NCBI GenBank assembly: GCA_020832345.1
Contig: JAFIEY010000030.1
Location: 1 to 64,000, forward strand
Source of the DNA: Cryomorphaceae bacterium
Lineage (GTDB): Bacteria; Bacteroidota; Bacteroidia; Flavobacteriales; Schleiferiaceae
DNA length: 64,000 nt
Direction of reading: 5' to 3'
Positions within the stretch are counted from its first letter, which is position 1. Each line of letters begins with the position of its first letter. Under the pieces are notes generated by a model. That model saw only the letters and a program-made list of their open reading frames with translations, was not told where the DNA came from and did not search any database. The translations under genes and the position numbers were made by a program. Positions 3,662-60,619 of this stretch are shown one piece after another.

Positions 3662-3822
3662 AGTGGCTGTCTATAAAGTCCGATAGCTTCGTTATGCTCA
3701 GTCAAAAATCCAGTCATTTACTTTAAGGAAAATCCCGGATTTTCCCTGATATCCATCAAAGTTAGCTCCGGTTCAAAAATCCCCTCGATTTTGATTGAAA
3801 TCATCCCCTTTAGAGTGGACTC
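3662..3822 (-). repeat. Hybrid/degenerate copy of the dispersed MITE-like repeat
   Basis: The right half, about 3760-3822 (GTTAGCTCCGGTTCAAAAA then the GATTTTGATTGAAATCAT block and ending TAGAGTGGACTC), matches the full copies closely. The left half keeps only a rough terminal repeat (GTCTATAAAG); the rest is unrelated sequence holding a 19-bp palindrome at 3727-3745, GGAAAATCC-C-GGATTTTCC. Flanks CTAAAT (3656-3661) and ATAAAT (3823-3828) agree at 5 of 6 bases, consistent with a decayed target duplication. It lies between the sprA 3' end and the ABC exporter promoter region. Confidence 0.75.
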
Positions 3823-3882
3823 ATAAATTAAGCAAATTATGATTTTTCATTACCGGCAAATGTACAATGTTTAGATGGGCTC

Positions 3883-3931
3883 ATTATGAATTATGGATTT
3901 CAAATTACGAATTTCTATCGAGATTCATAAT
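3883..3931 (-). other. Weak dyad after sprA stop
   Basis: ATTATGAAT (3883-3891) and ATTCATAAT (3923-3931) form a 9-bp AT-rich dyad 11 nt past the sprA stop. There is no U-tract behind it, so it may be only a weak mRNA 3' structure. No better terminator was found for the ruvA-sprA transcript. Confidence 0.25.
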
Positions 3932-3941
3932 TGACCTAAAC

Positions 3942-6900
3942 CTAACTTCCCAAATTCAGTCGTACCCTAAACCCTACATTGGTGTTTGAGGTAGGGAAAG
4001 CGGTGGAAATTTTTTGTTTAGATATAATTTGATCATAGAAAACCTGAACATTTACGCGTTGACTAATGGCATAATCGGCAGAAACTTTAATACTCGTTAC
4101 GGTTTGGCCCGCTGTAATTTGGTTGACATCTTCCAGGATGCGTCGAATGATGGTTTGGTTGTCGCGGACGGAGAGATCCAGGCGCAATTCCATATTACTG
4201 ACGGGATTGGTACGCTGCGCCCCCACCGAAACAAATCGCAATTTCAAATCTTTAATTACATAACCTCCACCAATTACAATTTCATTTCCCTTGGTTTCAG
4301 TAATTTGATTATTGGCCAAACTCAACAATACATTTCGGTCTCGTTTGTACTCCAGTCGTGCCGTGATACTGTTCCGCATGCGCATATTAAAACCGATAAA
4401 GGGTCCAAACTGCTCGGTCATGCTGATGCTGGCGACTTGGTTTTCCGGCATGATGTCCCCATTTTCATCGATTGGTTGCTCTCCGTCTTTTACCATTTGT
4501 TGTCGCTGCAAATTGGTGTTAAATCCGCCCACGGTAAAATTGGAAACATAAGCGTGATTGATTACGAAGTTTGAAAATATTTTGGAGAACATTTTTATTT
4601 TGGTAATTCCATCGTATGTCAAGCGCCAGTTTGGCAACGGAATTCCCCGATTGGGAAGAAGAATCCCCATATTCTTATCACCTTCAAGACTCATGTTGGC
4701 CGCGTTTTCGCCCAAATATGCAGAGATAAATGCGGGGATTAATACGCCCTGACTGGTATAACTAAATCGGTTGTAACCATAATTTGCTGAGTCTGGATTT
4801 CCGGTGATTTCCGGTGAGTAATCGGGATTTATTTGTGCGTAATTTTCTGCCCTGCGTCTTGAAATGGTTTCCCGGTTTGCCAAAAATTTATCGTAAGCTT
4901 CACTGTCGTAATCCGGTGAAATACTCGGCTCAAAGGAGGTTCCAATGGCGATAACCGAGGTGGTAAACATTCCTGAAAAGTAGGAGTTCTGACTTTCAAA
5001 TCGCATATCTTCCGGATTGAAGCGGAAGAATTCAGTCAGGTTATCGCTTCGGTTTTGACTGGCCGTAAGTTCCAGTCGCAAATTCGCCAAAGGTTCTATT
5101 GTAGCTCGTCCATTTATGTTTCGTGAAAATGTGGAATTATATTGGTTATTCAATAATGGAGAGGTCGTAATCCAACCTTTTTCAGCGGCCATGGGTCTAA
5201 TATCATCCTGACTACCAAAAACAAAGCCCAAGGTGGGTGCGTTAAAATCAGGCGTCATTCCAAAATATTGGGGTTGCGGTGTAAAACCCGGAAGCATAGT
5301 TCCCTCCGTTTGTGTCATACTCAAATTGGCAGTTCGCAAACTCATGGCCGCCCTGGCCGTACCCTTAATGATTTCCATAAAAATGCTGGGCTTCTTTTCC
5401 TCTTCTTCTTCTTTGGATTCTTCCTTGCCGCCACGACCACCGCGATTCATGGCCGGCGGACCACCCCGTTGAGCCCCCCTCTGTTTTTGCTTGCCTTGAT
5501 TTACTTCCCGCAAGAACTTCACCTTATTATACAGGGTAACAAAATTTACCTGCCCGTTTATTTGAACACTTGAAGCATTTTGAATGGTATTTCCCAAATT
5601 TAAAGAATCATCTTCAGGACCTGCCATTTGTGCGATTAGGGAGTTGGCAGACCAATCGTAATCACCGCTGTATCGAACATTGACCTGGGATATAAAATCA
5701 AGGAAGGGTAGTTTTTTGATGGGAACGTCCCAGTTAACGGTAACCGTTTGATTATAGCGAATGGGGCGACCAAACTCGCTCAAACTCTGACGAATACTTT
5801 CTCGAACTTCTGTATCCTGACTGGAACCGGGCAACTCATCAATCCAAGTATTCATCATAGCTTTAAAGTCAACCCTAAGCGATTTGGTCAGGTCGTAACC
5901 CATATCGTATTGTCGGTTCAGGGTAAAGCTTTTATTAAAGGTAGTATCCAATTGAAATGCCGGGTTATCAGTATTTCGCATCTGCATTTCATTGTACATG
6001 CGATTTGCATCCAATCGAAAAACCAATCGTTTGGGGACATATCCTATGCTCAGATCCCGAATAATGGCGAAGTTTTTATTTTTCAGAAAACCTACATTTT
6101 TAAAGGGTTCCCAGGGTTTTGCTTTCGATTGAAAACTATAATTTACCGCCCCTCGATGTTCCCTTCGCACATCAAAAACGGTATTGATATCTCTAAATAA
6201 ATTTTCGGAAAATGCGTATGACAAGGCAAAGTTTTCCACGTCGTAAAACTGGGGTTGTCGTTGGGTGTTGGTTCGTTCCTTTCGGACATTGGCAAAGTTC
6301 ATACTTCGTCGCATGGTGTACGTCTGAGCAATTTTCCGAATGGAGTCCCGATCCGCAAGTTCTTCAATATTGGCCAGCGCATCTCGAAATTCTATATCGG
6401 GATCGAGGGGGTTAAAACGAGGATTCCGCCACTCTTCAGCAATGCTGTAAAATAGCGGAATGCGTAGCTTGACCTTTTCTGAGAAAAACTTTCCGAGTTC
6501 CCAGCTGGTTTGCAAGTCATAGGATTGAATTTCCTCTTGGCTTCTTTCGGTAACACTTTGATCGATGCCGCCCCAGGCGATGGAGCTGTAGTTACCGGTG
6601 AGGGTGATATTGGCAAAATCGGCCAATTGCGCATTGACCCTTGCATTGGCGGCAAAACCACCCTGGCGGTCAAATCCTCCAAGTCTCAATTCATTCACCC
6701 AAATTTCAGCGCACTTTGGTAGTCCATCATCCTGCACATCGCCGAGTTGCTTTTTGGGGTTTCTTACCCCAATCATGATGGTTCGGGTATTTCCAAGGTT
6801 GGGCACGCCAACAACGGTGATTTTATATCCCCCAAAATCCCGTGAGTACCGATTCCGAAGTGGCGTACCGGCCCTATCTCTCTCAAGTTTTACTTCGCGT

Positions 6901-9900
6901 AACTCATCTAAGTCGATAATCATTTCGTTTTCCTCGGGCCAAATTTCGTTGGGCTGAGTTGCTCCCCAGGGCGTTACGGTGGTGGAAATTTCGTATTCGT
7001 AATAGTTTTGATTGTAGTCGCTACCCACGCGGATAAACACGGTCAAATCACCATTTCGCACAGGCTCCTGAGGAAATCGCTCTTCCACGTGAACAAACAT
7101 CCGAAGGCGCTTATACAACCGCATGTCCATGGCGAGATTCCGAAAAATGGCCCGGGCGTCACCGTCTCGCAAATTACAAACGGTCATGGACAAGGACTGT
7201 TCGTTTTGGGCTTGAATCGACGATGTTTGGAAAAACTGTTGTCTTTCAATTCCCGGAGGCAAAACATAGTTTATAGGTGAGCGCTGTCCGTTTTCTTCTA
7301 GGTTGACCACATTGGTTTCAAAGGTGGTTTCAAAATCTTCGTCTTCTTCCAGTTCATCGCGAATCCCGTCGAGGGTAAACATATACCGCCTCCACTCTCC
7401 CCGCACGAGTTCCAGTCGGGCCATCCTCAGCACAATGGGATCGGTAAACCCTTGCATAAACATCCGAATAAAACGGATGGAGCGGAAGTCGCTAATGGGA
7501 CCTACTCTTTTGTCGGGTTGGAAAATTGGCACTTTAAATTGAATCCATCTGGAGGTTTTTTCCGATCCATCGGGCAAAACACCAGTGCGGGTTTCAAAAA
7601 TATCAGTAATATGATTTTGCCCAACTACCAAATCGCGTTGTCGCATACTGATGCGGTATTGGAAATAGGCCTCGGATTTACTCAGGGTTTGATCCTGATT
7701 GATATCCTCCACATCCGGGCGGGTGGTAGAAGATTGTGGAAAACCTTCCGGCTGCTGATTATTTGAGTTGCCCTCGGTATTGTTGAATAATTTATACCGC
7801 TCTTCGATGGTTGCCTCGGCATCATCGAGGGCCGTAGAGCGGTAATAAGAGAAATTATCCGCTGCCGGGTCATCAAAAGCTTGTTCATACGCACCGGAAT
7901 TTACACCAAAAGCTGCTTCCAGTCTGTCCAAATAATTAAACGTTCCACCAAAACTATACGTTCTTTCCTGTTCGTCACTCAAACCATCAAGACCAACATC
8001 CTGCACGGTAATTGCGGAAGGATCATTATCGAAAGCCACCACTTGAGGTTGAATTTTGGGCACCAAGCCCCATGCGGTGGAATCAATTTTAGATGGATCA
8101 CCATCAATGGGCAATCCATTTTCAAAAGCCATTCTTCCATCCTTAAGTATATCTTCAGAAATATTTCCCAAGTTAATATACAAATCCCCACCGCTAAGGG
8201 TAGGGTCTTCTAGGAATGGGTCAAGCAACCAAAACTGTAAAAACTCAATGTTTTGTTCCTCAAAGTTGTTGGTCTGCAACTGCCGCATGATACCGGCCCA
8301 TCGGGATTGTGGATTTCTGAGTGTTCCATCTTCATTTAATCCGGAAGAAATACCTGCCTCACCTGAAACATCATAATTATAGGGTCCCCTTTCCGAAGGG
8401 TAATAAGCAATATCCAGTACAGGAATATTCCGGGGAAGGGCAGGGTCACGATCCATATTGGGAAACACCTCGCGGTATAGCACCTCTCGATGGTAGTGAC
8501 CTGATTGAAGTTCTTTGTTTTCCCTAATATTTTGCGGAGTTGAAGCATTACTCAGGTGAAAAATCGGATCCACCGTGTACCAGGCTACTCGTGCTCGATT
8601 ATACCCGTATCTGATGTCGTTGTTGAATTCTGCTTCGGGAAAGAGATCTGGTTGACCGGAAGGCACACTGGCTAATACCCACTGCATGGGATTTCGAATG
8701 TCTATCATCGTTTGACTCGACTCGAAGTCATCGATATAGGTGGTTTCTTCGCCGGTAATATTGATGGCCCGCGGTGAACCGGGAATCAAATGGGCAAACT
8801 CACCCTGAAAAGATACGGTGGATTTTTCTTTGGTACTGATAAAGGGAATATTATCTACCAATCGGGTGAGGAATGGCACTTCTTTATTGTACTGGGTATT
8901 CATTCCCCATATAGAGTTGGCAATAGGCTCATCTCCGAGATTGGCCTTTTGGGTAAGTGGTCGCTCGCGAAGGTGCAAGAAACTACCACCAATATTTAAA
9001 TCATCGCTATATCTGTGATCTACATTTAATCCAAAAAACTGTCGGGTTTGAACATTAAAGAGGGTGTTATTCTCAAAGTCAACTTTAATGGGCATTCCGG
9101 ATTGCAAAATACCTTCATTGAGAATTCGCACCCTACCTAGGTTATAATCGACGGTATAATCCACATCCTCCTGTAATTTTGAACCACCAGCAGTTACCAC
9201 AACCGAACCTGGGGGGATGTTAATGGCGTTGAGCATAATTTCCGAACCGCTGCTGGATTTATATCTTCCCTTGAGAAAGTATTTATTGAGCTGGGTTTGT
9301 TCTTGTGCTCGAAATCTGGTGCTGTCGTATAATGCCTGAAAGACGTAATCATCATGAAATTCTTCGTCTAATTTTCGCCTAAGGTTGCTACCGAAAGGTT
9401 CGAGTACTGGAAATATAATCCGGCCATTTTGTGGTTTTATAGTAAGATCGGGGATGTAGTCAAAAAATCCATCCGGCATGGGGTCGAGGTTTCGGTTCAC
9501 CCTATCGAGACCGACCACACGCAAGAGCAACTCTTCTTTGAGGTTTCCTTTTGGCAAAAAAGGAATGGGCACCCCGGTTTCGTCATTCCAGTACAAAACA
9601 TCCAAACGAAAATCCTCTTCTGAGATTCCAAAAGCATTTAGGGAATAAATGTTTTTCATCATCAAATCCCAAAGAGGAAGGCGAACATCGAGGAGGGTAC
9701 TTTTCAGCATTTTTAGAATAAGCGTACTTGGTGGCATTACACCGTCGTTGCCAAACTCACCCACTTGGTAGGTATTTCCATTCGCCGTGTATTGGAAGGC
9801 AACCGCAAGCACCTCATCTTGGTTTAAAGCCTGATTAAGTGAGATATATCCCAATTGCGGGTGAAAAGTATATTCAGAAGGATTGAGCTTTCTTGCGTTA

Positions 9901-11246
9901 GAGAGGTCTGTATAGTCAACGCCTTCCACAAATCCGCGATTATCGAGGCCTGTAGAAGCAGTGGCGATGGCGCGAATTCCGGGAAATTCCTGCTCCATTT
10001 GTCTTGGACTCAAACTGTTCATTTGGTTGTGAGGCAAGTCAGGATGTCTGCGGTCGTTGATTCGGGTAAAGATTTGCGCACCCGGGCGATTGGCACTAGA
10101 ATTCCTGTAGGCAGAGGGCTTATCGGCTTCACCCAAATCCTGGAATGCGACGATATTCCGAACATCTTCGGTTTGGTTTCGTCTGTTGGTCACGTAAACT
10201 TCGATTCGGGTAATTTGAATTGGTGAAGTAATTACCGGCATACTACGCAAATAGCGCTCGTAATTTTCGCGAAAATAATGGGAGAGAAAATAGTGACGAT
10301 TGGCTTCATACTCATCTGCTTGAATCATGAACTCTTGCTGCATCCCACCGCCTTGGACATTTACCGAGGAGGACTGACTCCGCTGTTCGGAAAGCACAGT
10401 GGTAACAGTGGTTTTACCAAACTGCATTTGGGTTTTGATACCGAATAAACTTTGCGCTCCGGAGATCAAGGCAGAATTGAGCGGAAGGTTGACATTTCCA
10501 ACTTCAATTTTCTTAAAAATATCATCTTCTTCACCACTAAATTCTGTTTTCATGGTGTTTTCAAAAGCAAAGGTTGCCTCAGTATCGTAATTGGTTTGCA
10601 GCTTCAATCGGGTGCCAATTTCCCCGGTAACGTTCATTTGGATACGTTGATCAAATACCAGGTTGAAAGTGCTTCGGTTTCGTTCGGGCAGCATAGGGTT
10701 ATCGATTTTTTGGAAACGACCGCCAATTGTAAGTGTAGCTGCACCCTGGGGTCGGATTTCGATATAATTGCTACCGAAGATATTTTTAAACCGTTCGCCG
10801 CCGACTTCGATTTGCGGAATTAGGCCACCTCCGGGATCCCGTCCGTCATCTTCCGTTTTGCGTTTCATACCGGCTCCGGCTCCGGCCTTTTGCTCCCAGT
10901 AATCCGTTGATTGTTCTTTAAAAATATATTCCCGGTATTCTTCAGGGGTAAGATATTTTGGCGTACCCAAAACAATATCCCCGAGTTTCCGGGTAATGAT
11001 GTACATGTTAGTTTCGGGATCATACGTGACTTCCTCCTTGATGTTGGCGGGATCTTTTAGAAACAATCCACCACCTCCGGGCGTGTATGGGTATTTTAGA
11101 CTATCGGGTTCGGTACTGTCATTGGCAAGTACCCAATCTTCCTCTACCGACAAATTGGTGTTACCACTTGCCGGCACCAGGAAAGTTGAGACAATGAGTC
11201 CAACAAAAACCGTAATTCCGTAATATCGATTTGTTTTGTTTCTCAA
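3942..11246 (-). CDS. sprA: SprA, outer-membrane translocon of the type IX secretion system
   Basis: A 2434-residue protein, the size expected for SprA (Sov in Porphyromonas). SprA is known as the very large beta-barrel that forms the T9SS export channel and is needed for gliding in Flavobacterium. The start is a signal peptide (MRNKTNRYYGITVFVGLIV.. cut near residue 28), then the characteristic N-terminal block with YTPGGGGLFLKDPANI and LTPEEYREYIF, a Gly/Arg-rich insert around residues 1920-1950 (RGGPPAMNRGGRGGKEE followed by a Glu/Lys run), and long alternating beta-strand stretches to a C-terminus ending in aromatic/Arg strands. It begins 8 nt after the ruvA stop and is almost surely cotranscribed with it. 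It would export the CotH, LamG and choice-of-anchor proteins coded later in the window. Confidence 0.96.
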   Translation of the reverse strand: MRNKTNRYYGITVFVGLIVSTFLVPASGNTNLSVEEDWVLANDSTEPDSLKYPYTPGGGGLFLKDPANIKEEVTYDPETNMYIITRKLGDIVLGTPKYLTPEEYREYIFKEQSTDYWEQKAGAGAGMKRKTEDDGRDPGGGLIPQIEVGGERFKNIFGSNYIEIRPQGAATLTIGGRFQKIDNPMLPERNRSTFNLVFDQRIQMNVTGEIGTRLKLQTNYDTEATFAFENTMKTEFSGEEDDIFKKIEVGNVNLPLNSALISGAQSLFGIKTQMQFGKTTVTTVLSEQRSQSSSVNVQGGGMQQEFMIQADEYEANRHYFLSHYFRENYERYLRSMPVITSPIQITRIEVYVTNRRNQTEDVRNIVAFQDLGEADKPSAYRNSSANRPGAQIFTRINDRRHPDLPHNQMNSLSPRQMEQEFPGIRAIATASTGLDNRGFVEGVDYTDLSNARKLNPSEYTFHPQLGYISLNQALNQDEVLAVAFQYTANGNTYQVGEFGNDGVMPPSTLILKMLKSTLLDVRLPLWDLMMKNIYSLNAFGISEEDFRLDVLYWNDETGVPIPFLPKGNLKEELLLRVVGLDRVNRNLDPMPDGFFDYIPDLTIKPQNGRIIFPVLEPFGSNLRRKLDEEFHDDYVFQALYDSTRFRAQEQTQLNKYFLKGRYKSSSGSEIMLNAINIPPGSVVVTAGGSKLQEDVDYTVDYNLGRVRILNEGILQSGMPIKVDFENNTLFNVQTRQFFGLNVDHRYSDDLNIGGSFLHLRERPLTQKANLGDEPIANSIWGMNTQYNKEVPFLTRLVDNIPFISTKEKSTVSFQGEFAHLIPGSPRAINITGEETTYIDDFESSQTMIDIRNPMQWVLASVPSGQPDLFPEAEFNNDIRYGYNRARVAWYTVDPIFHLSNASTPQNIRENKELQSGHYHREVLYREVFPNMDRDPALPRNIPVLDIAYYPSERGPYNYDVSGEAGISSGLNEDGTLRNPQSRWAGIMRQLQTNNFEEQNIEFLQFWLLDPFLEDPTLSGGDLYINLGNISEDILKDGRMAFENGLPIDGDPSKIDSTAWGLVPKIQPQVVAFDNDPSAITVQDVGLDGLSDEQERTYSFGGTFNYLDRLEAAFGVNSGAYEQAFDDPAADNFSYYRSTALDDAEATIEERYKLFNNTEGNSNNQQPEGFPQSSTTRPDVEDINQDQTLSKSEAYFQYRISMRQRDLVVGQNHITDIFETRTGVLPDGSEKTSRWIQFKVPIFQPDKRVGPISDFRSIRFIRMFMQGFTDPIVLRMARLELVRGEWRRYMFTLDGIRDELEEDEDFETTFETNVVNLEENGQRSPINYVLPPGIERQQFFQTSSIQAQNEQSLSMTVCNLRDGDARAIFRNLAMDMRLYKRLRMFVHVEERFPQEPVRNGDLTVFIRVGSDYNQNYYEYEISTTVTPWGATQPNEIWPEENEMIIDLDELREVKLERDRAGTPLRNRYSRDFGGYKITVVGVPNLGNTRTIMIGVRNPKKQLGDVQDDGLPKCAEIWVNELRLGGFDRQGGFAANARVNAQLADFANITLTGNYSSIAWGGIDQSVTERSQEEIQSYDLQTSWELGKFFSEKVKLRIPLFYSIAEEWRNPRFNPLDPDIEFRDALANIEELADRDSIRKIAQTYTMRRSMNFANVRKERTNTQRQPQFYDVENFALSYAFSENLFRDINTVFDVRREHRGAVNYSFQSKAKPWEPFKNVGFLKNKNFAIIRDLSIGYVPKRLVFRLDANRMYNEMQMRNTDNPAFQLDTTFNKSFTLNRQYDMGYDLTKSLRVDFKAMMNTWIDELPGSSQDTEVRESIRQSLSEFGRPIRYNQTVTVNWDVPIKKLPFLDFISQVNVRYSGDYDWSANSLIAQMAGPEDDSLNLGNTIQNASSVQINGQVNFVTLYNKVKFLREVNQGKQKQRGAQRGGPPAMNRGGRGGKEESKEEEEEKKPSIFMEIIKGTARAAMSLRTANLSMTQTEGTMLPGFTPQPQYFGMTPDFNAPTLGFVFGSQDDIRPMAAEKGWITTSPLLNNQYNSTFSRNINGRATIEPLANLRLELTASQNRSDNLTEFFRFNPEDMRFESQNSYFSGMFTTSVIAIGTSFEPSISPDYDSEAYDKFLANRETISRRRAENYAQINPDYSPEITGNPDSANYGYNRFSYTSQGVLIPAFISAYLGENAANMSLEGDKNMGILLPNRGIPLPNWRLTYDGITKIKMFSKIFSNFVINHAYVSNFTVGGFNTNLQRQQMVKDGEQPIDENGDIMPENQVASISMTEQFGPFIGFNMRMRNSITARLEYKRDRNVLLSLANNQITETKGNEIVIGGGYVIKDLKLRFVSVGAQRTNPVSNMELRLDLSVRDNQTIIRRILEDVNQITAGQTVTSIKVSADYAISQRVNVQVFYDQIISKQKISTAFPTSNTNVGFRVRLNLGS

Positions 11247-16702: not shown

Positions 16703-16776
16703 CATGTAATTTTTGGCATTACCGAATCATTAAATGCCCGATAAGCCAAGTTGTGAAAAAAGAAAAAACAAATAAT

Positions 16777-16917
16777 GAGTCCCCTCCAATAAGGATGATT
16801 TCAACCAAAATCGAAGAGGAGGGGATTTTTGAGCCGGAGCTAACCAGCTGTTAGTGAGGATTCAAAAGTCGATCGACAAAGAAGATTTTGGCTAAAGAGA
16901 CTATTTGGAGCAGACTC
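16777..16917 (+). repeat. MITE-like repeat, full copy, with 6-bp duplication AATAAT
   Basis: 141 bp running from GAGTCCCCTCCAATAAGG to ..TTTGGAGCAGACTC, with the conserved inner blocks and apical stem CTAAC-CAGCT-GTTAG. It is flanked on both sides by AATAAT (16771-16776 and 16918-16923), a perfect 6-bp direct repeat. The right duplication abuts the stop codon of the DUF4199-like gene at 16924. Confidence 0.9.
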
Positions 16918-16923
16918 AATAAT

Positions 16924-20754: not shown

Positions 20755-20756
20755 GC

Positions 20757-32122: not shown

Positions 32123-32177
32123 AAGTCTGCCCCAAAAAGTTCCTTTCTGCCAAAATCATCTTTTTTGGAGTAAACCC
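32123..32177 (-). repeat. 55-bp short copy of the MITE-like repeat
   Basis: AAGTCTGCCCCAAAAAG to TTTTTTGGAGTAAACCC, with the middle of the element missing. Terminal repeats carry several changes and the flanks (AATTAT/AATCTT) no longer match, so this is an old copy. It lies between the divergent CotH 1 and LamG genes. Confidence 0.8.
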
Positions 32178-32316: not shown

Positions 32317-34824
32317 ATGAGAACGAAAATATTCCTTTTCACAATTGCGCTAATAGGCCATTTTTCAATGGCTATTTCTGCTCAAAACTTAACTGGAGCA
32401 GAACGTTGTTTTTCGTCCACAGGAAATGGTTATGTCAATATCCCCAATTTCCCCCCAACAAGCTTTCCAATAAGCATAACTTTCTGGTTTCACCGAAATA
32501 ACCAAGGCGGCGTACAGGCGATTTTCTCCACAGACAATACGTTGGGTGGATACCATGGTATTCACGTACAGTACAGATTTAACAATCAAATAGAAGTGTC
32601 GTACGGAACAGGAAATTGCTATGCCCCTCAATGCAGGAGAGGTTGGTTAGTTGACATACCCAACGCCATGCACCCCATAAATACATGGATGCACGTCGCC
32701 ATTGTATATTCTTCGTCAACCGATACCGATATATACATCGATGGCCTTCTTCGTCCAAAAATAAGCACGGGCTCAGGCTCTACCACAATGATAACCGGAA
32801 CCAATCCCACCGCAAGAATTGGAACCTACCAACATTCCGCAGGTGGATCCAGCTTCAATCATTTCCTGAGCCAAATAGACGAGCTTTCCGTTTGGAATAT
32901 TGCACTAACAGCGAATCAAGTGCGGGATAATATGTGTCGGAAAACGCCAACCCCAAGCCCTGGATTAATCGCTTATTACAAATTAGACGAACCGCTACCC
33001 TCGGATTCAGTAATCGACCATTCAGGTAATGGTCGTCATGGAGTGAATGTTGGAGGCGTTACCAAACCAATATCCCAAGCGCAAATTGGTGATGAGTCAA
33101 CCCATTACTATGGCTCCATGGCCTTATTCAACCTACAGCACACCAATATTTTTGATGACACCATAAATGTTGATCTCCAAGGTGTGTATTACGGTTTACA
33201 AGCTTATACCACATACGGACTTCCCAATAACTTTGGACTTCATGCAAATGGCGACTCTTCTTGTTCGCCACAAAGGTTTTACGGATTTAGAGCAGTGGGG
33301 AACACATCTGCCCCAGGGGGCAATGTTGATGTAGAAATCATTTCAAACCCACAGCCTACAAATGTATTATGGCGACCCAACCTAACGGGGAATTTCAACC
33401 ACCCCCCTACTACGCCAATTTCAGGAGGTGTGTCAGTCAATTACAACGCCCAAACCAGAGAAATTTTGCCCATCCTTGGAACAGATAATTTTGATAGTGG
33501 CTTACCGGATACACTAGCTACCTGCACCTTTCCCGACACTCTTTTTGCGAACCCCATGCCTCCTAAATTAGGCGCGTATCTTTGGGATGATCTATCAACA
33601 GGAAATTCACGTGTCGTTAGCCAGCCCGGGACATATTACCTATCCGGGTACACCATTTGCGAAACCGATACCATTCCTTTTATCGACAGTGTTGTGGTGG
33701 CATTTGATGTCATCACCTGGGACACCACCGTTTTTATTTGCCACAACGATACATTCACCATAAACAATATACCACTTACAACCCCGGGGACGCATACCTT
33801 TAACCTCACGAATCCCAATCAATGCGACTCTACCATAATTGTAAATCTGGACTTTTTTCCACCTGATGTTCACGACACAACATTTGTTAAGTGTGAGGAA
33901 GACAGCATCAACTTTTTGGGTGTGTATTATTACAACTCCGGCAATTATGTCATTTCTTTTCCCGATTCATTAAATTGCGGTTTGGATTTAGTGATCAATA
34001 TTGTCAATCACCCAAGAACCACTTTTGATACAGTATTTGAAATATGCCCCGAAGAAGAAGTCGTTTTTTTGGGGGACACATTTACCAGCGAAGGAACATA
34101 TTCTATGCTTGTGGCAAGTGGCGGTTTATGCCTCGACGAATGGCTTATTACCATTGATTACCTTGTTGATCCTATTATAAAAAACATCCACGTAGATCTC
34201 TGCCCGGGTGAAGTCCATATTGCAAATGGAATGACCTTCCGCCAAGCTGGCACCTTTACCTTTCCCATTGAAAACCCAAATGGCTGTGATACAACCGTTC
34301 ACCTCACCATAGACCGCGTAAACGATCCCCCATTTTATTTAACACCCCCCGAAGACATGCCATTTTGCAGGATTGACGGTGGCGAAATTCGAGTGGTTGG
34401 ATTATCATCAGGACAGTGGCCCAGATGGAGTACAGGGGAGCAATCAACCTCAATCCTGGTATTTGAAGATGGTTGGTATTGGGCTGAATTTGGCGAATAT
34501 TGCCCAATTATCCGCGATAGTATATTCGTTTATGGAGAGGATTGTAGCCCCCGATTATTTATTCCAAATGCCTTTTCACCAAACGGAACAGGAATTAATG
34601 AACGCTTTCAAATAAAAGGTCAATACATCAAAACCTTTGAAATCTCCATTTTTAACCGATGGGGTCAACAAGTATTTCACAGTACCGATATAAGCTATTC
34701 GTGGGACGGCACAAATAATGGAAAGCTTGTCCCCAACGGTGTATATACATACGTTGTAAAAGCTACTAGTGAAATGAATCGGGAGGTAATTCAGGAAACG
34801 GGAACTGTGATGATGATAAGATAG
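32317..34824 (+). CDS. Secreted LamG/CHU_C protein with T9SS type B signal
   Basis: 835 residues. Signal peptide MRTKIFLFTIALIGHFSMA.. to SAQ; a LamG/concanavalin-like domain (about 28-210, with ITFWFHRNNQ, NTWMHVAIVYSS, DIYIDGLLRP and LSQIDELSVWNIALT); a linker with several beta-stretches; four tandem repeats of about 50 residues (about 463-668), each with a C..D..F..G..Y...GTY core and a CD(S/T) pattern; and a gliding-motility-associated C-terminal domain (IPNAFSPNGTGINERF, IFNRWGQQVF, WDGTNNGKLVPNGVYTYVV), which is the T9SS type B sorting signal. It is probably a cell-surface or secreted sugar-binding protein. It is transcribed against the flanking CotH genes. Confidence 0.9.
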   Translation: MRTKIFLFTIALIGHFSMAISAQNLTGAERCFSSTGNGYVNIPNFPPTSFPISITFWFHRNNQGGVQAIFSTDNTLGGYHGIHVQYRFNNQIEVSYGTGNCYAPQCRRGWLVDIPNAMHPINTWMHVAIVYSSSTDTDIYIDGLLRPKISTGSGSTTMITGTNPTARIGTYQHSAGGSSFNHFLSQIDELSVWNIALTANQVRDNMCRKTPTPSPGLIAYYKLDEPLPSDSVIDHSGNGRHGVNVGGVTKPISQAQIGDESTHYYGSMALFNLQHTNIFDDTINVDLQGVYYGLQAYTTYGLPNNFGLHANGDSSCSPQRFYGFRAVGNTSAPGGNVDVEIISNPQPTNVLWRPNLTGNFNHPPTTPISGGVSVNYNAQTREILPILGTDNFDSGLPDTLATCTFPDTLFANPMPPKLGAYLWDDLSTGNSRVVSQPGTYYLSGYTICETDTIPFIDSVVVAFDVITWDTTVFICHNDTFTINNIPLTTPGTHTFNLTNPNQCDSTIIVNLDFFPPDVHDTTFVKCEEDSINFLGVYYYNSGNYVISFPDSLNCGLDLVINIVNHPRTTFDTVFEICPEEEVVFLGDTFTSEGTYSMLVASGGLCLDEWLITIDYLVDPIIKNIHVDLCPGEVHIANGMTFRQAGTFTFPIENPNGCDTTVHLTIDRVNDPPFYLTPPEDMPFCRIDGGEIRVVGLSSGQWPRWSTGEQSTSILVFEDGWYWAEFGEYCPIIRDSIFVYGEDCSPRLFIPNAFSPNGTGINERFQIKGQYIKTFEISIFNRWGQQVFHSTDISYSWDGTNNGKLVPNGVYTYVVKATSEMNREVIQETGTVMMIR

Positions 34825-34858: not shown

Positions 34859-34994
34859 GAGTCCACTCCAAAAAGGATGATTTCAATCAAAATCGAAGGG
34901 GTTTTTGAACCGGAGGTAACTAACTGTTAGTGAAGATTCAAAAATCTAACGACAGGGAAAGTTTTGGCAGAAAGGGACTTTTTGGAGTGGACTC
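34859..34994 (+). repeat. MITE-like repeat, full copy, perfect 17-bp terminal repeats
   Basis: 136 bp, starting GAGTCCACTCCAAAAAG and ending with its exact complement CTTTTTGGAGTGGACTC. The internal blocks CAAAATC/GTTTTG and TTTTTGAA/TTCAAAAA are inverted around the apex. Flanks AATCAT/AGCCAT agree at 4 of 6. It lies between the convergent ends of the LamG and CotH 2 genes. Confidence 0.9.
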
Positions 34995-43221: not shown

Positions 43222-43357
43222 GAGTCTGCTCTAAAAAGTCCCTTTCTGCCAAAATCTTCCTTGTTGGTAGTTTTTTGAATCCTCACTAACAGCTGGTTAG
43301 CTCTGGTTCAAAAATCCCCTCGATTTTGATTGAAATCATCCTTTTTAGAGTGGACTC
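43222..43357 (-). repeat. MITE-like repeat, full copy, with 6-bp duplication AGTTAT
   Basis: 136 bp, GAGTCTGCTCTAAAAAG to CTTTTTAGAGTGGACTC, with apical stem CTAAC-AGCTG-GTTAG and stem TTTTTGAA/TTCAAAAA. Flanked by perfect AGTTAT copies at 43216-43221 and 43358-43363. It sits 18 bp upstream of the FISUMP start codon, probably over or next to its promoter. The T in CTCTAAAAAG is matched by A in the opposite terminal repeat. Confidence 0.92.
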
Positions 43358-43440: not shown

Positions 43441-43495
43441 GTGTCTGCTCCGAAAAGTGCATTTCTGCCAAAATCTTATTTTTCAAAGTGAACTC
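43441..43495 (-). repeat. 55-bp short copy of the MITE-like repeat
   Basis: GTGTCTGCTCCGAAAAG to TTTTTCAAAGTGAACTC, same internal junction as the other short copies but with several terminal changes. Flanks AAAAAT and TAAAAT agree at 5 of 6. Confidence 0.75.
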
Positions 43496-47918: not shown

Positions 47919-47955
47919 AAGCATCTCAAGCCACCGTGTTTGAGGTGCTTTTTTT
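47919..47955 (+). terminator. Intrinsic terminator of the choice-of-anchor-A gene
   Basis: AAGCATCTCAA pairs with TTGAGGTGCTT (11 bp, one GU) around a 10-nt loop and is followed by a run of seven T. A 55-bp repeat is inserted in the T-run. Confidence 0.88.
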
Positions 47956-48009
47956 CGTCTGCTCCAAAAAGTCCCTTTCTGCCAAAATCTTCCTTTTTGG
48001 AGTGGACTC
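47955..48009 (-). repeat. 55-bp short MITE-like copy inserted in a terminator U-tract
   Basis: Starts TCGTCTGCTCCAAAAAG and ends CTTTTTGGAGTGGACTC; internal junction as in the other short copies. TTTTTT lies on both sides (47949-47954 and 48010-48015), which is what insertion with a 6-bp duplication into the terminator T-run would leave. Confidence 0.85.
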
Positions 48010-53888: not shown

Positions 53889-54108
53889 ATTGGAAAAATA
53901 TAGTGTTTTATGATGTCATAATATAAAATATCAACACGCTACTTAACAAACGGTCTTTGCAATAATTCCCCATCTTGAAACAGAAAAAATCCCCACAGCA
54001 AAACAATCCATATTTTAACAATACTTTAATGGAAACCCCCGTAACTTTTATCGTTTCCAAGGGTCTTATTCTTGTAAATTTACCATCAACACACATACTT
54101 ATTGATCA

Positions 54109-56493
54109 ATGCGAAAAATTGCACTACTACTCATTGGTGTCCTTTTATTTAGCTCCCAATTATACGCACAAAAATTCACCATTTCCGGAAATATTGAAGA
54201 TTATGACAACGGAGAATCACTGATTGGTGTAAGTATATTTGCAGAAGGTACAGGTATGGGTACCACTTCAAATACCTACGGTTTTTACTCTTTTAGTTTG
54301 TCGCCCGGAAAATACACCATCGTATTTCAATATATTGGCTACCAAACCATCCGAAAAGAAATCGACCTGAAAAAGGACATCGATTTAGATATTAAAATGA
54401 AGGAGGAGGGCAAATCCCTAGATGCTGTAGAGGTCACCACTCGAGGAGCAGACGCCAACGTAAAAAGCGTAGAAATGAGTGTGACCGAAATCAGCGCCAA
54501 AGAAATACAGAAAGTGCCGCAACTTTTGGGTGAAGTTGATGTCATTCGCACTCTTACCCTATTACCTGGTGTTTCCACGGTTGGTGAAGGTGCAAATGGA
54601 TTTAATGTAAGAGGTGGTAATGTCGATCAAAATCTTATTTTACTCGACGAAGCACCCGTTTTCAATTCTTCGCATTTATTTGGTTTTTTCTCTGTTTTTA
54701 ATGCCGACGCCGTACAGTCATTTAAATTATACAAAGGTGGGATTCCGGCCAACTATGGCGGCAGACTTTCCTCGGTATTGGATGTGCGACAAAGGGAGGG
54801 AAACTCCAAACGTTTTGCAGCGCAGGGCGGCCTTGGTCTCCTCTCAAGTCGGGCCACTGTAGAAGGCCCAATTATCAAAGATAAAATGAGTTTCTTGCTC
54901 AGTGGAAGAAGATCTTATGCTGATGTTTTTACCAGAAATTCCGGCAATGAAGATTTGGCGGGAAATATTTTATACTTCTACGATTTTAATGGAAAAATCA
55001 ATTACCGAATCAATCGCAAACACCGATTATTTCTTTCCGGATATTTTGGAAGAGATGCATTGGGAATTGCCGACTTTGTCAATTTTAATTGGGGAAATGC
55101 CACGGCCACCCTGCGCTGGAACTGGACCATTAGCAATCGGTTGTTCTCAAATACAACCCTGGTTTATAGCGATTACGACTATGCAATTGGATCGGGTGAC
55201 ATCAATGACCTTGGAGAGAGCGGCTTTGCCTTTCGCCTCGATTCTCGTTTGAGAAATTATAAATTTAATCAGCAATTCACCTGGTTTGCCAGCTCCGATA
55301 TTCAGGTGGATTTTGGATATGAAGGTATTTACTACGACTTTCAACCCGGAAAATCCACGCTAAACACCGGAGAGATTTCAGAGGAGATTTTTAAAAGTGA
55401 ATTTGCTTTTGAACCCGCCTTTTACGCATCGGCAGAACAAAAAATAAACGGGAATTTTAGCATTCAATACGGACTGCGATACAGTTCCTTTTACAATATC
55501 GGCGCCCGTGATGTTCCCATTTACGACGGCATTCCCTCTGAACAAACACGCATTGGAACCGAGTCATTTGGTCGTGGAGAAATCATCGAGGCTTATAACG
55601 GCCTCAACGGTTTGGAACCACGTTTTAGCATGAACTATTCGCTCAACAAAACTTCTTCGATAAAGGCCAGCTACAACCGAACCCGTCAATACATTCATCT
55701 CATTTCCAACACCACCTCTCCTACACCCCTCGATACATGGCGTCCGGCTGGAAGATTTATTCAACCTGCAACCGCCAATCAGGTAGCAGCAGGATATTTT
55801 AAGAATTTAAAAGACAATATCTACGAATTTTCGGTAGAAGCTTTTTATAAACACTTCAACAATTTGGTCGATTATCGCGACGGCGCCAACATAATCATTG
55901 ACGACATAGAAACCGCGCTCCTAACCGGTGATGGACGCTCTTACGGGATGGAATTTTTGGTGAGAAAACAACAGGGAAAATTACAGGGGTGGGTCGCTTA
56001 TACGTTAAGTCGCGCAGAACGCATCGTTGAAGGAGATGATCCATTTACAAGTATCAGCGATGGCGAATGGTATCCCGCAAATTTCGACCGACTACACGAT
56101 TTGTCCATCGTGGTTACTTATACCCTAAGTAAAAAATGGGATTTTGGCGCCAATTTCGCATACCAAACCGGACGACCAGTAACCTTTCCGGTTGGAAGGG
56201 CCGAGGTGGACAACGGACTTTTTGCCCCGGTAAACACATTGCGAAATAGCAGTCGAATTCCCGATTTTCACCGTTTGGACTTATCGGCAAACTACACCCC
56301 TAAAGGCGGTAAAGAAAACAAGAAGCGCTGGGAATCATCCTGGTCGTTTGGAATATACAACGTGTATGCACGACGGAATCCATTTTCCGTATTCTTTCGC
56401 AACAACCCCGACAATCCAGCACAAAACCAAGCGGTTAGATTGGCCATTTTCGGTACCATCATCCCTTCTGTAACTTACAATTTTACCTTCTGA
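54109..56493 (+). CDS. TonB-dependent receptor paired with a DUF4249 lipoprotein
   Basis: 794 residues. Signal peptide MRKIALLLIGVLLFSSQLYAQ; carboxypeptidase-like regulatory domain (about 22-100, ISGNIEDYDNGESLIGVSIF); plug (about 115-220, with LPGVSTVGEGANGFNVRGGNVDQNLILLDEAPVF); then a 22-strand-type barrel ending TYNFTF with terminal Phe. It takes up an unidentified substrate across the outer membrane. The DUF4249 gene starts 2 nt after the stop, and such pairs recur in Bacteroidota, where the lipoprotein probably acts like the SusD partner of SusC. Confidence 0.93.
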   Translation: MRKIALLLIGVLLFSSQLYAQKFTISGNIEDYDNGESLIGVSIFAEGTGMGTTSNTYGFYSFSLSPGKYTIVFQYIGYQTIRKEIDLKKDIDLDIKMKEEGKSLDAVEVTTRGADANVKSVEMSVTEISAKEIQKVPQLLGEVDVIRTLTLLPGVSTVGEGANGFNVRGGNVDQNLILLDEAPVFNSSHLFGFFSVFNADAVQSFKLYKGGIPANYGGRLSSVLDVRQREGNSKRFAAQGGLGLLSSRATVEGPIIKDKMSFLLSGRRSYADVFTRNSGNEDLAGNILYFYDFNGKINYRINRKHRLFLSGYFGRDALGIADFVNFNWGNATATLRWNWTISNRLFSNTTLVYSDYDYAIGSGDINDLGESGFAFRLDSRLRNYKFNQQFTWFASSDIQVDFGYEGIYYDFQPGKSTLNTGEISEEIFKSEFAFEPAFYASAEQKINGNFSIQYGLRYSSFYNIGARDVPIYDGIPSEQTRIGTESFGRGEIIEAYNGLNGLEPRFSMNYSLNKTSSIKASYNRTRQYIHLISNTTSPTPLDTWRPAGRFIQPATANQVAAGYFKNLKDNIYEFSVEAFYKHFNNLVDYRDGANIIIDDIETALLTGDGRSYGMEFLVRKQQGKLQGWVAYTLSRAERIVEGDDPFTSISDGEWYPANFDRLHDLSIVVTYTLSKKWDFGANFAYQTGRPVTFPVGRAEVDNGLFAPVNTLRNSSRIPDFHRLDLSANYTPKGGKENKKRWESSWSFGIYNVYARRNPFSVFFRNNPDNPAQNQAVRLAIFGTIIPSVTYNFTF

Positions 56494-56495
56494 TC

Positions 56496-57383
56496 ATGTC
56501 GAATACAAAAAATAATATAAATACCTCCGCAAAGGTCAGGTTATTCAAGTTGAGTTTATTGACTGTCTTAACAATGTTTATGGCCACATCCTGTGAGGAC
56601 GTCATCGAAGTGGAACTAGAAGATGGCCCACTACAATTGGTGGTAAATGGCGGCATTACAACTGAAAATCCGGCTAAAGTAATTCTATCCACAACAGCAC
56701 CCTATTTTGAAGAAGGTCCAACTCCTCGTGTTACCGGAGCATCCGTGCGGATTTTTGAAAATGGACAACTATTTGAAGCACTCACAGAGGACGTTTCCAA
56801 ACCGGGTAATTACATTGGTACTAAAACCGGGGAAATTGGAAAATCATACGCTATAGAAATTGAAATCGGAGATGATGGCAGTCACTTTCAGCAAACCTTT
56901 TGGCGGAGTAAAAACGAAATCATTTTCCCGATTTTTGAAATTGACTCCATTTACACCACATTTATTAGAACACCACCTTTGCCCATTGGCAACTATTTGA
57001 ATTTTCAATTCCTTCGTCCGTTCTCCTATCCGCAAGGGGCGTTTTACCGCATTCAGCGCGCTATAAACGATAGTGCGTTTTTACAGGACTTCTTGTTTAT
57101 TGAACTTGCTGCTGATTTAGAATCATTTAGGTTTCGTCCTGTCTTCAATGGATTGGTTGAACCGGGCGACACCATTGACCTAACCTTTTCCTCAATTACC
57201 CCTTCATATCGGGAATATTTGCAGGTGTTGTTTCAGCAACTCAATCCGGGATTTTTATTCGATCCGCCACCGGCACCCATCCGCGGGAATGTTCAGGAGG
57301 AAAATGACAAACGTGTGGCGCTGGGATACTTCTGGGCCTCGTCAATCATCAAAGGCCGATACATCGACCCAGAGGAAGATTAA
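56496..57383 (+). CDS. DUF4249 lipoprotein, partner of the TonB receptor
   Basis: 295 residues. After a polar start the segment LFKLSLLTVLTMFMATSC is a lipoprotein signal with Cys33. Then the typical DUF4249 opening (EDVIEVELEDGPLQLVVNGGITTENPAKVILSTTAPYF) and an Ig-like stretch with ASVRIFENGQLFEAL, ending LGYFWASSIIKGRYIDPEED. Two nt separate it from the receptor gene, so the pair is one transcription unit. A short MITE-like repeat begins 5 nt past the stop; its target duplication includes the last base of the stop codon. Confidence 0.88.
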   Translation: MSNTKNNINTSAKVRLFKLSLLTVLTMFMATSCEDVIEVELEDGPLQLVVNGGITTENPAKVILSTTAPYFEEGPTPRVTGASVRIFENGQLFEALTEDVSKPGNYIGTKTGEIGKSYAIEIEIGDDGSHFQQTFWRSKNEIIFPIFEIDSIYTTFIRTPPLPIGNYLNFQFLRPFSYPQGAFYRIQRAINDSAFLQDFLFIELAADLESFRFRPVFNGLVEPGDTIDLTFSSITPSYREYLQVLFQQLNPGFLFDPPPAPIRGNVQEENDKRVALGYFWASSIIKGRYIDPEED

Positions 57384-57388
57384 AACTT

Positions 57389-57443
57389 GAGTCTGCTCTA
57401 AAAAGTCCCTTTCTGCCAAAATCTTCCATTTTAGAGTGGACTC
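57389..57443 (-). repeat. 55-bp short MITE-like copy with duplication AAACTT
   Basis: GAGTCTGCTCTAAAAAG to ATTTTAGAGTGGACTC. AAACTT occurs immediately before (57383-57388) and after (57444-57449). The left duplication overlaps the stop codon of the DUF4249 gene, and the right one abuts the next full copy. Confidence 0.9.
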
Positions 57444-57449
57444 AAACTT

Positions 57450-57585
57450 GAGTCTGCGCCAAAAAGTCCCTTTCTACCGAAATCTTCCTTATCGGTAGAT
57501 CTTTCAATCATCACTAACAATTAGTTAGCTATGGTTCAAAAAGCCCTTCGATCTTGATTGAAATTATCCTTTTTGGAGTGGACTC
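57450..57585 (-). repeat. MITE-like repeat, full copy
   Basis: 136 bp, GAGTCTGCGCCAAAAAG to CTTTTTGGAGTGGACTC, with apical stem CTAAC-AATTA-GTTAG. The right flank ATCTGA does not match the left flank AAACTT, so its own duplication is lost or was changed by the neighbouring insertion. It lies between the convergent ends of the DUF4249 and NhaD genes. Confidence 0.88.
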
Positions 57586-57601
57586 ATCTGAATTGATAAC
57601 G

Positions 57602-58996
57602 CTAAAATACAGAATGTTCGAGAATGTAGAAGATGGCGCCGGCAAAATAACCCACCAGCGCAAGTGGTGCGATTTTTTTCAAATACCATCCAAAGGTAAT
57701 GGTTTCAATGCCCATAACGGCAACGCCTGCAGCAGAGCCGATAATAAGTGCACTACCTCCCGTTCCCGCGCAATACGCCAAAAACTCCCAGAAAAGTCCA
57801 TCCTGAGAAAAATACCCGCTGGGCAAAATTTCGTACATACCCATTGAGGCTGCGACCAATGGCACATTGTCCACCAGTGCGGATAGCAGTCCGATAAAAA
57901 TTCCAACGGCATATACACCTCCTTCCTGATCGGTGCCCAGCGTATTGTTGAGCCAACCGGCGAGTTCACCCAATTGACCGGCAGATTGTAAACTACCTAC
58001 GGCGAGGAGAATTCCCATAAAGAATAATACCGAAGCAAAATCTACTTTTTTCAGGGCGGCAATTACCGAAAGTCTTTTGCGCACATTGACGTTCTTTCGC
58101 TTATGCATAATTTCTGTCATCACCCATAAAATGCCCAAACTCAACATCATTCCCATAAAGGGTGGAAGATGGGTCACCGTTTTAAAAATAGGCACAAAAA
58201 CAAGACCCAATATACCGGCTAAAAATACATTTCGCTTTTGCTTATACGTGAGACCGGGTAGGCTTTGGGCTAAATTTGTAGAAACTTCCGGCCTTCTGAC
58301 ATTGCCTTTTATCCTGGGCGTTAACAGGGCCAATGGCACGAGTAAACAAATCAAACTCGGCAGGATAAGTCGGATAATAACGTTTTGGGCAGTTACTTGT
58401 TTTCCAATCCAAAGCATAGTGGTGGTTACATCTCCAATGGGTGACCAAGCGCCTCCGGCATTGGCGGCCACCACAATCATACCCGCAAAAAGCCAACGAT
58501 CTTTGTAGTTGGCAATGATTTTTTTCAAAAGTGAGGCCATCACAATTGTGGTGGTAAGGTTGTCGAGCGCGGCAGATAAAAAGAAAGTAAGGATACAAAT
58601 AATCCACATCAAACGTGGACGAGATGTGGTTTCAATTTTATCGGTAATAAGTGAAAAGCCTTGGTGAATATCGATTAGTTCAACAATGGCCATGGCGCCG
58701 ATAAGGAAAAAGAGAATACTGGCAATTTCGCTCAGATGGTGTAAAAGCTGGTATTCAGCAATATAATACATTGCCGCCTGAATAAAGCCTATTTCACTGC
58801 CGTCTGCCCCGACAAACATGTGGTCGGGAACCGTTTCCGGCGTAAAAAACGACCCCGCGCTTAAAATATAAATCGCCCAACACAACACGCCGGCAATCAA
58901 GGCACTTGCTGCTTTGTCAACATGAATTTGATGTTCGAGGGCTATGGCTAAATACCCCAAAACAAAAACAGTAATCATCAAGATATCGGCAATCAC
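57602..58996 (-). CDS. nhaD: NhaD-type sodium/proton antiporter
   Basis: 464 residues with about 12 hydrophobic segments. The start MIADILMITVFVLGYLAIALEHQIHVDKAASALIAG, the block FFLSAALDNLTTTIVMASLL (ion-site region with conserved Asp-Asn) and NAGGAWSPIGDVTTTMLWIG are characteristic of NhaD in the ion-transporter superfamily. It exports Na+ or Li+ in exchange for protons across the inner membrane, common in marine and halotolerant bacteria. It begins 32 nt after the stop of the dehydrogenase gene and is probably cotranscribed with it. Confidence 0.92.
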   Translation of the reverse strand: MIADILMITVFVLGYLAIALEHQIHVDKAASALIAGVLCWAIYILSAGSFFTPETVPDHMFVGADGSEIGFIQAAMYYIAEYQLLHHLSEIASILFFLIGAMAIVELIDIHQGFSLITDKIETTSRPRLMWIICILTFFLSAALDNLTTTIVMASLLKKIIANYKDRWLFAGMIVVAANAGGAWSPIGDVTTTMLWIGKQVTAQNVIIRLILPSLICLLVPLALLTPRIKGNVRRPEVSTNLAQSLPGLTYKQKRNVFLAGILGLVFVPIFKTVTHLPPFMGMMLSLGILWVMTEIMHKRKNVNVRKRLSVIAALKKVDFASVLFFMGILLAVGSLQSAGQLGELAGWLNNTLGTDQEGGVYAVGIFIGLLSALVDNVPLVAASMGMYEILPSGYFSQDGLFWEFLAYCAGTGGSALIIGSAAGVAVMGIETITFGWYLKKIAPLALVGYFAGAIFYILEHSVF

Positions 58997-59028
58997 GGCG
59001 TGGTGGTTTTAGTTTATATATCTGTGTT

Positions 59029-60258
59029 TCAATTCATCAATTGCTCCAAGGCAATTTGGTAGGCCATATCTGTAAGCTTCAACTTTTCTTTCCTCCGGTC
59101 GTGACACGCCTGTAAAGCGTTTTTAATTCTATCAGACACATCAGAAAAAATTGCATCTTCACTGAGTTCAGCACGATCCTGCATGAGGTATGCAAAAACC
59201 CTCGCCATACCACAATTGGATATAAAATCGGGAATACAACTTAGTTTATCATCTGCATAAAGTGCAGTGGGGCCTTCAAATATTTCATCGTCAGCAAATG
59301 GCACATTGGCTCCGGCAGACATAACTTCTAAACCCGAAGCCAACATTCTATCTATTTGGTCTTTGGTAACCAAACGCGAAGCGGCTGCGGGAATGAAAAT
59401 TTCTGCACCAATATCCCAAATAGCCTCATTCGTACTTTGAAAATCGAGTAAATTATCTTCAATTAGATAATTACCAGTTTTATTGACCATCAAGTTATTA
59501 ATTTGGTCAAAATCCAACCCATCGCGGTTGATGATGCCACCTACCCGATCAATTATACCGGTGATTTTCACCCCCATTCTGGACAAATACCACGCTGCGG
59601 CGGCGCCTACATTTCCCCAACCCTGTATGATTGCCCTCTTTCCGGAAATTTCACCCCCGTAGATGGCGTAATAATGTTTAACCGATTCCGCAACGCCGTA
59701 GCCAGTTATCATGTCAGCGACGGTAAATTCCCTGGCGTTTACGGGTGCATATTCAGATTTTTTGACCAGAAAAAGCACGCCTTTTTGAAGCTGTTCTATT
59801 TTTTTCTTTTTGCTATCCGGGTTGGGATTAAAATGCCCAACGAGTACACCTTCCTGCGGATGAAGGATTCCAAGGTCTGATGTTATGGGTATCACTTCGT
59901 GAATTTCGTCCACGTTTAAGTCTCCTCCGGTTCCGTAATAATTTTTCAGCAATGGACGAAGTGCCTGATACCAACGTTCCAGAACACCTTTTTTTCTGGG
60001 ATCCGCCGGATCAAAATTAATCCCGCTTTTTGCGCCCCCAATTGGTGGGCCTGCCACGGTAAATTTAATTTCCATGGTTTTGGCCAACGATAAAACCTCG
60101 CGCTTGTTTAGGCCAACACGCATTCTTGTACCACCACCGGCAGCGCCTCCGCGAAGACTATTAATTACGGCCCAACCTTCAGCCTCCGTTTCTCTATCTT
60201 TCCAGTGAAATACAACTTCTGCTTGCGTCTGTTCAAACTTGGCTAAAAGGTCGTTCAT
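59029..60258 (-). CDS. Glu/Leu/Phe/Val-type amino-acid dehydrogenase
   Basis: 409 residues. Oxidative deamination or reductive amination of an amino acid with NAD(P). Visible: substrate domain with GGGTRMRVGLN, the catalytic-site lysine in PPIGGAKSGINFDP, GTGGDLNVDE, then the nucleotide domain with IIQGWGNVGAAAAWYL (GxGxxG/A loop) and VMSAGANVPF near the C-terminus. Glutamate dehydrogenase is the most likely activity by length, but Leu/Val/Phe dehydrogenases share these motifs; an insertion near 150-170 (NPNPDSKKKKIEQLQKGVLF) is not typical of GdhA. First gene of a probable unit with nhaD. Confidence 0.82.
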   Translation of the reverse strand: MNDLLAKFEQTQAEVVFHWKDRETEAEGWAVINSLRGGAAGGGTRMRVGLNKREVLSLAKTMEIKFTVAGPPIGGAKSGINFDPADPRKKGVLERWYQALRPLLKNYYGTGGDLNVDEIHEVIPITSDLGILHPQEGVLVGHFNPNPDSKKKKIEQLQKGVLFLVKKSEYAPVNAREFTVADMITGYGVAESVKHYYAIYGGEISGKRAIIQGWGNVGAAAAWYLSRMGVKITGIIDRVGGIINRDGLDFDQINNLMVNKTGNYLIEDNLLDFQSTNEAIWDIGAEIFIPAAASRLVTKDQIDRMLASGLEVMSAGANVPFADDEIFEGPTALYADDKLSCIPDFISNCGMARVFAYLMQDRAELSEDAIFSDVSDRIKNALQACHDRRKEKLKLTDMAYQIALEQLMN

Positions 60259-60302
60259 CTAAATTTTTCTTTAGTAAAAATGATAAATTGGTTTTACGCG
60301 GC

Positions 60303-60310
60303 CAAAATTA
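60303..60310 (-). promoter_or_regulatory. Candidate -7 box for the dehydrogenase gene
   Basis: Leftward TAATTTTG followed by GCC, 45 nt before the ATG at 60258. No -33 match at 19-21 nt. Confidence 0.4.
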
Positions 60311-60402
60311 AAATACAGCCTCCAATATTTAGGAAAATAAAACCTAATTTACACAAATAGATGAAAGGTCGCATTTTTTTCATTCAAAGACATCTATTTG
60401 TT

Positions 60403-60544
60403 GAGTCCACTCCAAAAAGGATGATTTCAATCAAAATCGACGCGGAGGGGGCTTTTGACCCGCAGCTAACTATTTGTTAGTGAGGATTCAAAAATCTACC
60501 GACAAGGAAGATTTTGGCAGAAAGGGACTTTTTGGAGCAGACTC
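60403..60544 (+). repeat. MITE-like repeat, full copy, with 6-bp duplication TTTGTT
   Basis: 142 bp, GAGTCCACTCCAAAAAG to CTTTTTGGAGCAGACTC, with apical stem CTAAC-TATTT-GTTAG. Perfect TTTGTT copies flank it at 60397-60402 and 60545-60550. It lies between gldD and the dehydrogenase promoter; the rest of the 361-bp gap holds nothing recognised. Confidence 0.92.
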
Positions 60545-60619
60545 TTTGTTGCGGGAACACTGTACGTAAGGCAATTGAGGCAAGTCCGCTACCGCATTGA
60601 TTAAATGTGATTTACAAAC

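Follow-up and report, generated by a model that had tools for sequence, protein, structure and literature searches.

The window, a 64,000-nucleotide stretch of a Cryomorphaceae contig, carries genes whose Pfam families include transporters, secreted type IX proteins, SSB, GldD and similar. Pfam scans of 32 window ORFs found no transposase among the families listed (25 of 46 in one of the scans), in line with the initial annotation, which had reported none. Type IX secretion and gliding genes, as well as very small, symbiont-sized genomes within the order, point to Flavobacteriales as its most likely identity. That annotation had also described ten copies of a miniature transposable element (MITE) family in the window. 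All ten stretches are present (Table 1): five are full-length copies (84–94% identical to the 142-bp consensus), four belong to a 55-bp class and one is partial. A BLAST search with the genome consensus across the window recovered no further full or half copy.

Table 1. Coordinates of the element copies in the window, and of other repeats and insertion sequences discussed in the text
Feature	Location	Strand	Remarks
Full copy, 141 bp	window 16777..16917	+	left end first; 89% to 142-bp consensus
Full copy, 136 bp	window 34859..34994	+	88% to consensus
Full copy, 136 bp	window 43222..43357	-	93% to consensus; exact duplication AGTTAT
Full copy, 136 bp	window 57450..57585	-	84% to consensus; tandem neighbour of the 57389 copy
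Full copy, 142 bp	window 60403..60544	+	94% to consensus; exact duplication TTTGTT
55-bp copy	window 32123..32177	-	degenerate ends; without duplication
55-bp copy	window 43441..43495	-	degenerate; 83% to 55-bp consensus; without duplication
55-bp copy	window 47955..48009	-	first two bases TC; 53/53 bases equal to 55-bp consensus
55-bp copy	window 57389..57443	-	95% to 55-bp consensus; exact duplication AAACTT
Partial copy, left part of full element (consensus 1-68)	window 3761..3822	-	87% to consensus 1-68
Piece of a different dispersed repeat, outside the MITE family	window 3657..3746	+	matches of 73-89% at more than twelve other places in the sample
Second dispersed repeat, other copies	L177:1197; L241:5350, 6783; L070:9515, 1830; L194:6311		same repeat as window 3657-3746
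ISAs1-like host insertion sequence	L081 (1-1273)		18-bp ends CAGGGCAAACGCATTAAA
IS1634-like host insertion sequence	L086 (645-2734)		perfect 17-bp ends TTAACCCACATTGCAGC
151-bp elements of G594, examples	C18:3051-3202; C402:8188-8338; C476:2239-2389

Perfect 6-bp target duplications had been proposed for five of the window copies, and four of them stand: the three listed for the copies at 43222, 57389 and 60403, and AATAAT at 16771–16776 and 16918–16923, flanking the copy at 16777. The fifth, TTTTTT around the copy at 47955, falls within the run of T residues of a predicted terminator whose stem is at 47919–47950; because of this, and because the copy starts with TC instead of GA, it is weak as a duplication and was not counted. 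The flanks do not match at the 34859 copy (AATCAT and AGCCAT), which sits between convergent genes with ORFs ending at 34824 (+) and 35012 (-), nor at the 57450 copy (AAACTT and ATCTGA). The latter and its tandem neighbour (57389–57585) are separated by a single shared AAACTT, and another tandem pair, at G000:C170:40312-40587, likewise by one AAAGTT, as if a later insertion had reused the target site of an earlier copy. The stretch at 3662–3822, originally taken for a hybrid copy, is a chimera: its part at 3761–3822 is indeed the left end of the element, but a piece of another dispersed repeat (3657–3746) is fused to it, which explains its hybrid appearance. This second repeat is about 170–190 bp long, has ends like TTAGTGKCTGTCYATAAAGT and ACTTTATGGACARRCTCTAA, is present in more than a dozen sampled copies, some of them in tandem, and looks like another MITE family.

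Abundance and mobility in the host genome

Ten copies in the window had suggested several hundred per genome, and the host assembly (4.03 Mb, 260 contigs, completeness 100) bears this out. The 17-base end GAGTCYRCTCYAAAAAG, with at most one mismatch, matches at 886 places in it and the reversed control at none. Ends were paired into elements in 1.50 Mb of the host genome (37%, a sample that is not random), giving 191 elements or 1.45% of that sequence; extrapolated from this non-random sample, the whole genome would hold about 500. The elements are short and non-coding (55–143 bp with 17-bp inverted ends, too short for a transposase) and, in the 1.50-Mb sample, come in discrete sizes of 55, 84, 125, 131, 136 and 142 bp. 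The left end reads GAGTCCACTC[C/T]AAAAAG and the right end GAGTCTGCTC[C/T]AAAAAG, forming inverted ends of 17–18 bp. Position 11 is matched between the two ends (C/C in 88 copies, T/T in 72, mixed in 20; Fisher 8e-28), and positions 6–7 are asymmetric, CA at the left and TG at the right, in 162 of the 191 copies.

Tabulating the flanking hexamers genome-wide had been set beforehand as a test, and the other copies do carry matching flanks. An exact 6-bp duplication was found at 94 of 188 sampled copies, versus 2.4 expected when left flanks are paired with the right flanks of other copies. Duplications of 3, 4 and 8–10 bp stay at chance level, while 5 bp gives 9 (1.7 expected) and 7 bp gives 2 (0.35 expected). 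The duplicated hexamers are of 60 different kinds and reveal a preference for AT-rich targets of the form A-W-n-n-W-T, with A first in 84 of the 94 duplications and T last in 91. The 886 ends versus none in the reversed control, together with these duplications, exclude chance, and the duplications uphold the original argument for transposition as opposed to a merely shared motif. Exact duplications occur in every main size class, and the deletion forms are therefore mobile themselves.

An empty allele had also been called for, and one was found inside another copy of the element. In contig L079 a 142-bp copy is inserted within another, and excising the insert together with one ATGATT gives back the consensus sequence of the interrupted copy, which thus provides an empty site within the genome. 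The 886 ends, the 60 target hexamers and this nested copy with its empty site together document many dispersed copies that have transposed. Moreover, several contigs (L066, L194, L203, L204 and L222) end inside identical full-length 142-bp copies, which points to recent movement. It also follows that the assembly under-represents the youngest copies, the best-conserved ones being those that the assembler left unresolved. Resolved copies have a mean identity to their class consensus of 92% (142 bp) and 96.7% (125 bp).

The age of the family bears on whether it can still move. It could be old and by now immobile, its mobiliser extinct in the host lineage, as might be read from the 50 assembled 142-bp copies, which are all distinct and on average 8% from consensus, and from the failure to find an autonomous copy in 1.50 Mb of the host genome. 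We nevertheless find this account rather doubtful: the contig-end copies are identical precisely where the assembler failed, so that the remaining copies look older than the family as a whole is, half of the copies retain exact duplications, and the 125-bp copies remain close to their consensus. Furthermore, all contigs seen were at least 2.5 kb long, and a multi-copy element of 1.8 kb could therefore be missing from the assembly.

Copies seldom lie in coding sequence: an overlap of more than half with a predicted ORF (minimum 100 aa) was seen for only 7 of the 191. By simple ORF calls rather than curated genes, convergent intergenic spaces are over-represented (38 copies versus 19 expected), and the median distance is 32 bp from gene 3' ends versus 133 bp from 5' ends. 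This placement fits selection against promoter damage, and a role as terminator is possible. One could accordingly see in the copies a functional RNA or DNA hairpin, i.e. an ERIC/REP-like palindrome such as a convergent-gene terminator, kept by selection and not a simple parasite. Besides the placement, the folding is in its favour: individual copies fold much more stably than shuffled sequences (z of -2.6 to -6.9; -5.0 and -6.9 for the two strands of the 60403 copy), and owing to the conserved CA/TG asymmetry the RNA copied from one strand can form a 17-bp stem without interruption by using G-U pairs. Still, such an explanation appears improbable to us as a replacement for transposition, given that the duplications and the nested copy demonstrate mobility whatever the function, and that promoter avoidance would yield the identical placement. 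Across two genera the consensus structure is weak, at -7.3 kcal/mol, and its paired changes are nearly confined to the ends, where end recognition explains them equally well; one copy from another genus of the family (G009, see below) folds no better than shuffles, and Rfam covariance models had no match in the window.

Taken together, the copies are very likely non-autonomous DNA transposons (MITEs) mobilised in trans, several hundred strong in the host lineage and some of them recent, which supports the initial interpretation as essentially right. Every MITE feature tested is present, apart from a demonstrated autonomous partner.

Relatives in the phylum and the search for a mobiliser

Four genomes of the same genus contain 0, 0, 6 and 10 ends, so the expansion is lineage-specific. 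G009 has 71 ends, and its copies combine a 142-bp body about 90% identical to that of the host with altered ends (left GAGTCTGCTCCGAAAAG, right GAGCCCCCTCCGAAAAG). A Psychroflexus MAG (L284, reverse strand 5750–5889) also has the 142-bp element, with an identity of about 85%, and a Bacteroidales MAG (L337, reverse strand 3172–3312) has a 70% relative. Such similarity of a non-coding element across genera suggests that the MITE body has spread between them by horizontal transfer.

The ends themselves reach further than the body. Scanning 84,980 species genomes for the exact 17-mer GAGTCCACTCYGAAAAG returned at least 117 stretches, and among the matches listed almost all are from Bacteroidota, with a few from other or chance phyla. 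Among these same matches short elements of 53–290 bp predominate, with 70 end pairs lying 53–288 bp apart, 34 of which are flanked by an exact 6-bp duplication (2.1 when shuffled) of the form AAnnTT. In the listed matches, too, the information content of the flanks is 1.40 bits at -6, 1.55 bits at -1 and 0.14 bits at -7, while end conservation stops after position 18. G594, from another family of the class, harbours a separate 151-bp family that shares these ends, each of its elements being bounded on either side by GAGTCCACTCTAAAAAG, and has dozens of ends in total. In another family of the order we observed a 129-bp element (L179:1-129) with similar ends (GAGTCTACTCCGAAAAG ... CTTTTCGGAGTGAACTC) and a different interior. 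The identical end type on short elements throughout Bacteroidota argues for one widespread transposase family, and a single widely shared transposase probably moves all of them.

Where this transposase is encoded was pursued at several levels. In the 1.50 Mb (37%) of the host genome, no end pair encloses a gene of its own, and long elements (0.6–4.5 kb) bounded by the ends turned out to be only pairs of separate short copies. The host does carry DDE_Tnp_1 genes of ISAs1-like and IS1634-like types, and one of these insertion sequences might move the element through mimicry of its ends. This seems very improbable to us: none of the six DDE_Tnp_1 loci, some of them cut by contig ends, has MITE ends around the gene, and the ends of the ISAs1-like copy and of one IS1634-like copy are those in Table 1. 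Membership of the element in either family was likewise rejected. For IS1634, the host genes of this type are without MITE ends and an ORF from a Bacteroidales genome (L258, described next) has only chance-level blastp matches to them; for ISAs1, whose ends are of the type CAGGG..., the host copy has CAGGGCAAACGC ends.

Trans-mobilisation by a dedicated transposase is the reading we retain, and the orphan ends gave one lead. In the Bacteroidota stretches listed (at least 117 in all), these ends adjoin ordinary genes except in L258, where a 664-bp element (reverse strand 872–1535) contains a decayed ORF. Its flanks form no duplication and the ORF has no match to curated families; by eye, its tail resembles the C-terminus of DDE transposases. 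Compared with 396 Bacteroidia genomes, the ORF had one match, in G793, inside an open frame of 593 aa that belongs to the candidate autonomous element at C52:6185-7814. This 4.1-Mb genome has a sole near-perfect end (one mismatch or fewer), which lies 1.49 kb upstream of the match on the same strand; a genome that large should contain about 0.02 of them. From the geometry of L258, the far end should be near 7,990, making an element of about 1.8 kb nearly filled by the 593-codon frame. No far end within 3 mismatches was detected in G793; that of L258 itself differs by 4. The 593-aa frame is thus a transposase candidate, known by its coordinates and with one end seen, while the host sample yielded no autonomous transposon sharing the ends. 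A 109-aa query from the candidate, short and diverged, picked up no relative anywhere in the host assembly. Plasmid and phage collections held no relative of the MITE or of the L258 protein, and viral contigs gave 12 scattered end matches and no relative of that protein. That movement must occur in trans, as the initial annotation had it, is thus what we infer, with the candidate autonomous element known from another genome by coordinates alone.

Proposed mechanism and significance

Under the mechanism we propose, a transposase acting in trans would bind the ends and link the element to the two strands of the target, cut at positions 6 bp from each other in AT-rich A-W-n-n-W-T sites, and repair of the gaps in the staggered target would create the 6-bp duplication. 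The 125-, 131- and 55-bp forms would be internal-deletion derivatives that are mobile as such. The best candidate for the mobiliser is the putative 1.8-kb element of G793 with its 593-aa open frame, related to the decayed 664-bp element of L258. More broadly, and on a judgement that falls a little short of even, the ends GAGTCCACTC(C/T)(G/A)AAAAG with AAnnTT duplications may be the signature of an undescribed, phylum-wide family of Bacteroidota transposons of about 1.8 kb, with a transposase of about 590 aa outside the curated families, whose non-autonomous descendants would vastly outnumber the parent, reach several hundred in some genomes and move between genera.

No mention of the end sequences was found in the literature searched. 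Like prokaryotic MITEs in general, the elements are short, non-coding and intergenic, with inverted ends, a constant duplication and deletion variants (PMC10969869). Their number of about 500 is near the top of the counts given in that review, which covers e.g. Correia, QMITE and Chunjie (711 copies for ERIC in Photorhabdus luminescens, more than 120 for Correia). The anatomy recalls the ERIC of enterobacteria, also an imperfect palindrome of similar size, intergenic and in hundreds of copies in some genomes, although ERIC belongs to different taxa and the likeness rests on the anatomy given in the review, not on sequence (PMC10969869). Within Bacteroidota, a Cardinium endosymbiont shows a comparable lineage-specific burst, that of MITECca01, with 169 copies each about 240 bp long; this MITE derives from ISCca4, of the IS982 family, and intact parents are present in the same genome (PMC9769881), whereas here the parent was not found in 37% of the host and the end signature is phylum-wide. 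BrickBuilt and the other MITEs of Porphyromonas gingivalis are also intergenic and MITE-like, but have IS5-like ends such as GAGACCTTCGCA, duplications of variable length and 10–20 copies (PMC4596501).

The hyper-abundant MITE family described here is real and, as far as the literature was searched, new, though of a known kind. Few MITE expansions have been described from Bacteroidota, and this one ranks among the larger known in bacteria. Its ends form a signature that short elements have in common throughout the phylum, and a candidate transposase for their mobilisation can now be located by its coordinates. With a 142-bp body that carries lineage-specific ends in different genera, the horizontal movement of MITEs and the co-evolution of ends and transposase become directly testable.
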